Of a DNA stretch of 39,984 nt, positions 33,000 to 33,620 are shown one piece after another (the first letter of the stretch is position 1; every line of letters starts with the position of its first letter). The notes under the pieces were generated by a model, which was not told the DNA's origin, did not search any database, and saw only the letters and a program-made list of their open reading frames with translations. The DNA comes from Bacteroidota bacterium (GTDB taxonomy: Bacteria; Bacteroidota; Bacteroidia; Palsa-965), in assembly GCA_013298545.1 (NCBI GenBank), contig JAAFIA010000009.1:1-39984 (forward strand), written 5' to 3'. Both the position numbers and the translations under genes were made by a program.

Positions 33000-33620
33000 T
33001 TATTTGTAAAACTGATCCTCTTTCCATTTAGCAGGATTTTTTAGGATGTAATTCGATATGTTAAGATAAGATTCTTCGCTACGAATAATATTCTCATAAT
33101 AATTGCGTTGCCATACTACACAACCGATTTCCATCGAATTTAATTGTTTTGTTACAGCGGATTTATATCCGCGCACAATTGCGCCGATCGTATTTGATGG
33201 GCTTCGGAATTGAGATGGAGGGGTATGGGGCGAATGCAATTCGCCCTTACTGGTATTGTTGAGTGGGATTGTGTCGCCTTTACTGGTATTACTGAGTGGG
33301 ATTATGTCGCCTTTACTGGTATTACTGAGTGGGATTGTGTCGTCTGTGGGGGATAGTTTGATGATGCCGTGCAAGTGATTAGGCATGATCACAAATTCGC
33401 CCAACTCTACATTAGGACGCAATTCTGGTGTTTTCAACCATTCCTTGTAAGCGACTTGTCCAAAGACATTTAATATCATTTGGCCATCAACTATACTCCC
33501 GAACAAATGTTTACGGTTGTAACAACAGATTGTAATGAAATACAAACCTGCTTGGCTGTAATCATAACCTTTCAATCGGATAGATCTGCGATGGTGAATC
33601 AATGGATTGTATTGGCTCAT
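33000..33620 (-). CDS. REP-associated tyrosine transposase (RAYT) with internal repeats
   Basis: 206 residues from the start at 33620 (MSQYNPLIHHRRSIRLKGYD); the longer frame would run into the GT87 gene. The HUH motif is MPNHLHGII with H82 and H84; YFITICCYNRKHLFG (27-41) and VVWQRNYYENIIRSEESYLN are typical of the Y1 transposase family linked to REP elements. Candidate catalytic tyrosines are Y152 and Y174/Y175. Residues 94-126 are three copies of an 11-residue unit (DTIPLSNTSKG and variants), and next to them the DNA holds a REP-like palindrome. Both lie in the loop between the HUH motif and the C-terminal helices and keep the frame open. RAYTs are usually single-copy and domesticated; no insertion-sequence ends are seen here. 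Confidence 0.9.
   Translation of the reverse strand: MSQYNPLIHHRRSIRLKGYDYSQAGLYFITICCYNRKHLFGSIVDGQMILNVFGQVAYKEWLKTPELRPNVELGEFVIMPNHLHGIIKLSPTDDTIPLSNTSKGDIIPLSNTSKGDTIPLNNTSKGELHSPHTPPSQFRSPSNTIGAIVRGYKSAVTKQLNSMEIGCVVWQRNYYENIIRSEESYLNISNYILKNPAKWKEDQFYK
33228..33246. repeat. REP-like palindrome inside the transposase gene
   Basis: GGGCGAAT-GCA-ATTCGCCC: perfect 8-bp arms around a 3-nt centre. It is translated in the transposase as part of KGELHSP. The form resembles REP palindromes on which RAYT proteins act. Confidence 0.8.
33241..33339. repeat. Three tandem 33-nt repeats inside the transposase gene
   Basis: Three head-to-tail 33-nt units, each beginning TCGCC(C/T)TTACTGGTATT, differing at a few positions; the first shares its first bases with the right arm of the REP-like palindrome. 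They encode the three 11-residue units and do not shift the frame. Confidence 0.9.

Follow-up and report, generated by a model that had tools for sequence, protein, structure and literature searches.

A REP-type hairpin in frame within the variable loop of a RAYT transposase gene from a Bacteroidota bacterium

The RAYT gene and the elements in its loop

The window, by which we mean the whole stretch of 39,984 nt that was analyzed, harbors a RAYT gene (Table 1). RAYTs are thought to spread REPs and are mostly single genes. The gene product has an HUH motif (PNHLH, residues 80-84), a catalytic tyrosine in the motif WQRNYYENIIR and the fold of Y1 transposases, and is a RAYT. The score against Pfam Y1_Tnp was 23.3 bits (cut-off 23), while the score against NCBIfam NF047646 was 66.4 bits and thus below the cut-off of 80. 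The only solved structure matched by sequence was TnpAREP of E. coli (4er8, E 1.8e-6), which was also the best match by fold. Two more Y1 transposase genes are present in the window genome (G000:C77:42284-42571, L016, and G000:C21:7124-7324, L017); both are of another type and lack a long loop.

Table 1. Features of the RAYT locus, with positions in the window.
Feature	Position	Strand	Remarks
RAYT gene (TnpAREP-like HUH/Tyr transposase)	33003..33620	minus	206 aa; stop at 33000-33002
Variable loop, residues 94-139	33204..33341	minus	AlphaFold pLDDT <50; between strand E82-89 and helix H141-162
REP-type palindrome GGGCGAATGCAATTCGCCC	33228..33246	minus	arms of 8 bp, spacer of 3 nt; encodes (K)GELHSP
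GTAA at the hairpin foot	33247..33250	minus	TTAC on the plus strand; variant of the GTAG/GTGG REP foot
33-nt tandem repeat, 3.1 copies	33241..33342	minus	codes (G)D(T/I)IPL(S/N)NTSK

The AlphaFold model, which was built on an alignment of only 11 sequences, was mostly confident for the core of the protein (mean pLDDT 66.6). By alignment-based bounds, the loop between PNHLH and the helix IGAIVRGYK has 60 aa. The stretch with pLDDT below 50 nearly coincides with the interval that was flagged in an earlier note on this DNA, and the model suggests that the variable loop is probably disordered. The view expressed there that a flexible loop tolerates the inserted elements agrees with these low pLDDT values and with the tolerance of RAYTs in general for loop hairpins.

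Within the loop, the arms GGGCGAAT (33228-33235) and ATTCGCCC (33239-33246) flank the trinucleotide GCA. The earlier note had described a perfect palindrome; this is correct for the arms, which pair perfectly over 8 bp, but the 19-mer as a whole is imperfect due to its center. The sequence places this palindrome of the REP type, in frame, after the HUH motif and before the catalytic helices, and the open reading frame is uninterrupted through the palindrome and the repeat array. On the coding strand, the loop consists of three 33-nt units followed by GTAA-GGGCGAAT-TGC-ATTCGCCC. In the predicted fold of the single-stranded DNA, the centroid structure was this stem alone (-8.9 kcal/mol). The whole stretch of 136 nt folded with a z-score of -2.5, and 2 of 200 shuffled sequences folded equally well.

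We applied the rule for the stem of GTAG REPs as worded in the available text of PMC6006769, namely a stem of 7-20 nt, a loop of 2-5 nt and G or C at three or more of the first four stem bases. The hairpin of the window, with its 8-bp stem GGGCGAAT and its loop of 3 nt, has all of these traits. The tetranucleotide GT[AG]G, which the rule for GTAG REPs places at the 5' foot, is replaced by GTAA.

The exact 19-mer was present nowhere else in the window genome, and it was still a single copy when the arms were allowed any spacer of 2-4 nt. With up to three mismatches, 36 sites were found, compared to 6 for the reversed pattern. Apart from the window copy, two of these sites had two mismatches and all others three. 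Around the two closer sites, a foot of the GTAG type and a complete stem were both missing, and these sites were treated as chance matches. A search for REPs in the flanks of the RAYT gene revealed one hairpin of unrelated sequence, and the gene is therefore not REP-flanked as a REPtron would be.

The 33-nt array (score 176) was by far the strongest among 7 tandem arrays in the window, and a separate repeat search also found 3 copies at a spacing of 33 nt. In-frame repeats of this length inside the transposase gene had been noted before, and they do keep the frame. Read on the coding strand, the junction between units is GTARGGCGA, which combines the REP foot with the beginning of the left arm. 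Because of this junction, the simplest origin of the array, which we regard as a local expansion, would be that DNA with the REP was duplicated and later decayed, leaving aside the order of events. Direct arrays of the whole palindrome, with spacings of 33, 34 and 49 nt, were observed in MAGs of Saprospiraceae, Flavobacteriaceae and Chitinophagales (L035, L132, L104); the first of these spacings equals the period in the window.

Hairpins in other RAYT genes and REPs in other genomes

A protein search for RAYTs in the same phylum gave a match in 180 of 392 genomes, and genes were fetched from the matches listed. The set of 157 genes comprised the best-scoring among the matches listed, the window gene and 9 loci from a scan for the palindrome whose alignment spanned both halves. 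We excluded 15 fragments that had been aligned, and the loop bounds were taken from alignment columns. Removal of the window gene and the 9 genes fetched via the palindrome resulted in a set of 147 genes collected by protein similarity alone.

Loop length varied from 6 to 226 aa among the 157 RAYTs. Stems of at least 8 bp were strongly concentrated in the loops, with 152 in 23.2 kb of loop sequence, 13 in 42.4 kb of the N-terminal part and 8 in 32.3 kb of the C-terminal part. When the codons of the loops were shuffled, only 2.25 hairpins were expected. Within the RAYT gene, hairpins of this kind are thus preferentially located in the loop. A loop hairpin of at least 8 bp was present in 110 of the 147 genes, and its palindrome was usually different from that of the window. 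The loop hairpins comprised 76 distinct 8-nt arms, 9 of which occurred in more than one codon phase. Since the arm sequences differ this widely, the loop hairpin is not a conserved peptide. The same loop in all relatives, which the earlier note had named as an outcome against its own reading, is not what we found.

These data also bear on whether the loop is simply a conserved stretch of protein that happens to be encoded by palindromic DNA. The peptide GELHSP is indeed common within the clade of the window gene. Different RAYTs, however, have different peptides in this place and still have palindromic DNA, most exact copies of the 19-mer lie outside of long reading frames (see below), and the loop is predicted to be disordered. 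We consider a coincidence extremely improbable and, in view of the codon shuffling and the different codon phases, judged it as refuted.

When a loose detection of the REP foot was applied to the 147 genes, without a null model, 47 had a palindrome with a foot on both sides, 22 had a single foot, 27 had a hairpin without recognized foot and 37 had no hairpin. In the other 14 genes, by the same loose detection without null, a REPIN-like pair of hairpins was seen, with the first foot at the 5' side and the last foot at the 3' side.

Tandem repeats were found in the loops of 34 of the 157 genes, compared to 8 genes for the N-terminal part and 4 for the C-terminal part, and the period was a multiple of 3 in 48 of 51 loop repeat rows. 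In several cases the repeat units contain REP arms (27 nt in L085 and L072, 51 nt in L060). In two genes with very long loops, the loop consists of in-frame repeats, with a 15-nt unit occurring 32 times in L276 and a 24-nt unit occurring 20 times in L249.

In-frame REPs were also observed at other places of RAYT genes. The gene L041 has a second insert in its N-terminal part (L041:368-386, TVGANCIRPNDK...), which is read in a different phase than the loop copy. L060 has a shorter remnant (GTNGIRP) at the same place, and the related genes L085, L047 and L040 lack this insert. In L171, L183 and L269 the REP follows alphaC and precedes the WQRNYY strand (...TGELQFAP..., QGEKSFAPTIWQ), which is another tolerated site; the main loops of L171 and L183 have no hairpin.

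An exact scan of a collection of 84,980 genomes for the 19-mer revealed at least 120 loci with at least 130 copies. Among the 130 copies listed, 91 were followed by CTAC, corresponding to GTAG right before the hairpin on the other strand and thus to the usual REP foot, and 9 were followed by TTAC as in the window. Of these listed copies, 10 were located in RAYT genes, 5 in other open reading frames of at least 150 aa and 115 elsewhere. The hosts among the listed matches included Capnocytophaga, Pinibacter, Mucilaginibacter, Parabacteroides, Microcystis, Crenothrix and Clostridia. The 19-mer is therefore the core of a dispersed REP in Bacteroidota and other phyla. In the Chitinophagales MAG-82 (L056, L077, L081, L108, L129, L139, L143), the palindrome is part of a longer common repeat, ctactcctcgtatt-REP-ctactgcggggtat, which seems to be a composite element of greater size in this one genome.

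Copies that are many, dispersed and mainly extragenic are thus found for this 19-mer in other genomes, whereas the window genome has a single one. For this reason, we call the element of the window a REP-type hairpin and not a REP of the window genome. A search of the genome for more copies had been proposed in the earlier note, where their lack was to count against the REP reading. Formally this is the outcome; because this 19-mer occurs as a dispersed REP in other genomes, the lack of a second copy is not fatal to that reading.

Relation of the loop hairpin to REPs outside the gene

Loop hairpins and hairpins in the flanks of the same gene had an 8-mer of the stem arm in common in 34 of the 72 genes that had hairpins in both places. 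In 2000 permutations of the flanks, which ignore relatedness and include some flanks with a neighboring RAYT gene, the mean was 5.2 and the highest value 14. We also followed two hairpin classes over the 392 genomes. Class 1 (GGGCGAAT..ATTCGCCC) was present in 26 genomes and class 2 (GAGACGTTGC..GCAACGTCTC) in 14. Copies of class 1 beyond the loop were found in 4 of 5 genomes with a carrier RAYT and in 21 of 387 others (Fisher p 6e-5), and copies of class 2 in 2 of 3 carrier genomes and in 11 of 389 others (Fisher p 0.003), carrier status being judged from the fetched RAYTs only. The carriers without an extra copy were the window genome for class 1 and G024 for class 2.

The match to the flanking hairpins, together with the strict position and the high frequency of the loop hairpin in the unselected genes, would be expected if the internal REP was a built-in substrate or switch that is kept by selection. 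A transferred RAYT would then always bring a hairpin that it recognizes, and/or the protein would curb its own expression by binding to its gene or mRNA. That the window genome and G024 have no copy of the respective class outside the loop fits with such a role. Changes in the stems gave a divided result. Among 58 gene pairs, 52 had a hairpin; 8 of these could not be aligned, the pair with the window gene among them, and 44 were counted, with G-T taken as a pair. Where both bases of a stem pair had changed, pairing was kept in 20 of 23 cases, but 68 one-sided changes broke pairs in the same 44 gene pairs, indicating that the stems also decay. The double changes could also stem from replacement by another REP. 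Furthermore, a quarter of the unselected genes (37 of 147) do without such a hairpin, and preferential insertion near the own gene combined with tolerance would give the same pattern. We consider it a tentative possibility, and not our favored one, that in RAYT genes of this group the cognate REP is a working part of the gene, as a substrate or a self-control hairpin in the coding sequence. Selection, or copying from sister REPs, would then preserve its palindrome, and the REP would be carried along at horizontal transfer. If so, transposase and target would be inseparable, and the window gene, with the only copy of its genome, would be the minimal form.

Origin of the hairpin in the window gene

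By tree path, the nearest kin of the window gene were RAYTs of Confluentibacter lentus, a Cytophagales bacterium, and Chitinophagaceae and Chitinophagales bacteria, with identities reaching 73% across 152 core columns. The palindrome of the window gene recurs, read in an identical phase (RGELHSP compared to KGELHSP in the window), in kin RAYTs at 51-66% identity, a uniformity that is exaggerated, since these genes (L040, L041, L047, L049, L055, L060, L072, L085, L141) were fetched because they hold the palindrome. Among relatives that were not selected in this way, the loop of L171 is without the palindrome, and the loop of L146, a gene from the tree region of these kin, starts with GGGCGTAT/ATACGCCC instead, which is a paired change. 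No starred branch of the tree groups the window gene with its kin, and branch support was weak. No empty site could be shown in relatives, because the neighboring glycosyltransferase-like gene had only matches of 29-36% there and the NADH dehydrogenase-like neighbor was not located beside those matches.

The earlier note had proposed that the element may have inserted into, or expanded within, its own transposase gene; in the stronger form of this proposal, a REP would have newly inserted in this host and then expanded. The RAYTs of the host family (L019, L020, L021) have no loop hairpin, which speaks for a fresh insertion, but they are distant from the window gene and not its close kin. The window genome contains no REP that could have served as source, and the palindrome is found, with its phase unchanged, in kin of other orders. 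Insertion in this host was thus not borne out, and we regard it as improbable. Because of the palindrome and phase shared with kin of other orders, the palindrome was probably inherited with the gene. The gene itself probably arrived by horizontal transfer, judging only from the distant hosts of its relatives.

Taken together, we favor the view, to which we assign a probability of about 85%, that the loop which connects the HUH half of this RAYT with the helix/tyrosine half contains a REP-type hairpin in frame, and that the hairpin came with the gene. The RAYT would act on a GTAG-type foot and hairpin in single-stranded DNA and copy or paste REPs. In-frame copies in the disordered loop would survive since the function of the protein is kept. 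The REP probably entered the loop before the window lineage split from its kin, and it would have come along with a gene whose nearest relatives sit in other Bacteroidota orders; the 33-nt units may then represent local tandem duplicates of REP-bearing DNA that have partially decayed. As the REP has no other copy in the window genome, the RAYT is an orphan there, and its REPs may never have spread after arrival or may have been lost. Besides the biased choice of kin, the weak placement in the tree and the missing empty site mentioned above, the following speaks against this explanation: the foot GTAA is neither GTAG nor GTGG, and there is no sign that the window RAYT moves REPs in this host, since neither a flanking REP nor a second genomic copy is present.

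A hairpin of the own REP type in three quarters of the sampled genes provides a compact handle on self-control versus keeping the target linked. To this the window adds an orphan case, with one hairpin inside the gene and none elsewhere in the genome, and it illustrates how a loop is lengthened through repeats that keep the frame.

The element most similar to the one described here is found in TnpAREP subclass 2.4 of Quentin et al. 2018 (PMC6006769), for which the available text describes REPs inserted within the gene and to which it assigns RAYT group 4 of Bertels et al. 2017. Like this subclass, the window RAYT has a variable insertion between beta3 and alphaC that holds an in-frame REP. For the signatures given there (NH[IFV]H, WQ and YIxNNP), the window protein reads NHLH, WQ and YILKNP, with two differing letters in a letter-by-letter comparison. 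In the kin RAYTs at 51-66% identity, the motifs are NHIH, NHMH or NHFH and, in most cases, YIINNP. The window further differs from subclass 2.4, as described in that text, by a palindrome that is the only copy in its genome, by the lack of a flanking REP and by the foot GTAA.

GTAG REPs were also found inside genes, where they form in-frame inserts that add amino acids (Di Nocera et al. 2013, PMC3733652). The window element resembles them, as far as described in the available text, in its stem-loop with a GTAG-type foot and in the added amino acids. The genes which harbor those inserts are others, many of them for DNA repair, whereas here it is the RAYT itself. The Rickettsia palindromic elements cited in the same paper are likewise palindromic repeats tolerated in frame inside proteins; according to the available text of PMC3733652 no RAYT gene is involved, and the comparison with the window is one of descriptions. 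Both parts of this finding are already in print as a class property in the available text of PMC6006769, so that the window is a good new example and not a new phenomenon. To that description our analysis adds counts with controls, the match between loop and flank hairpins, the frame-keeping repeats, the orphan state and further in-frame sites.
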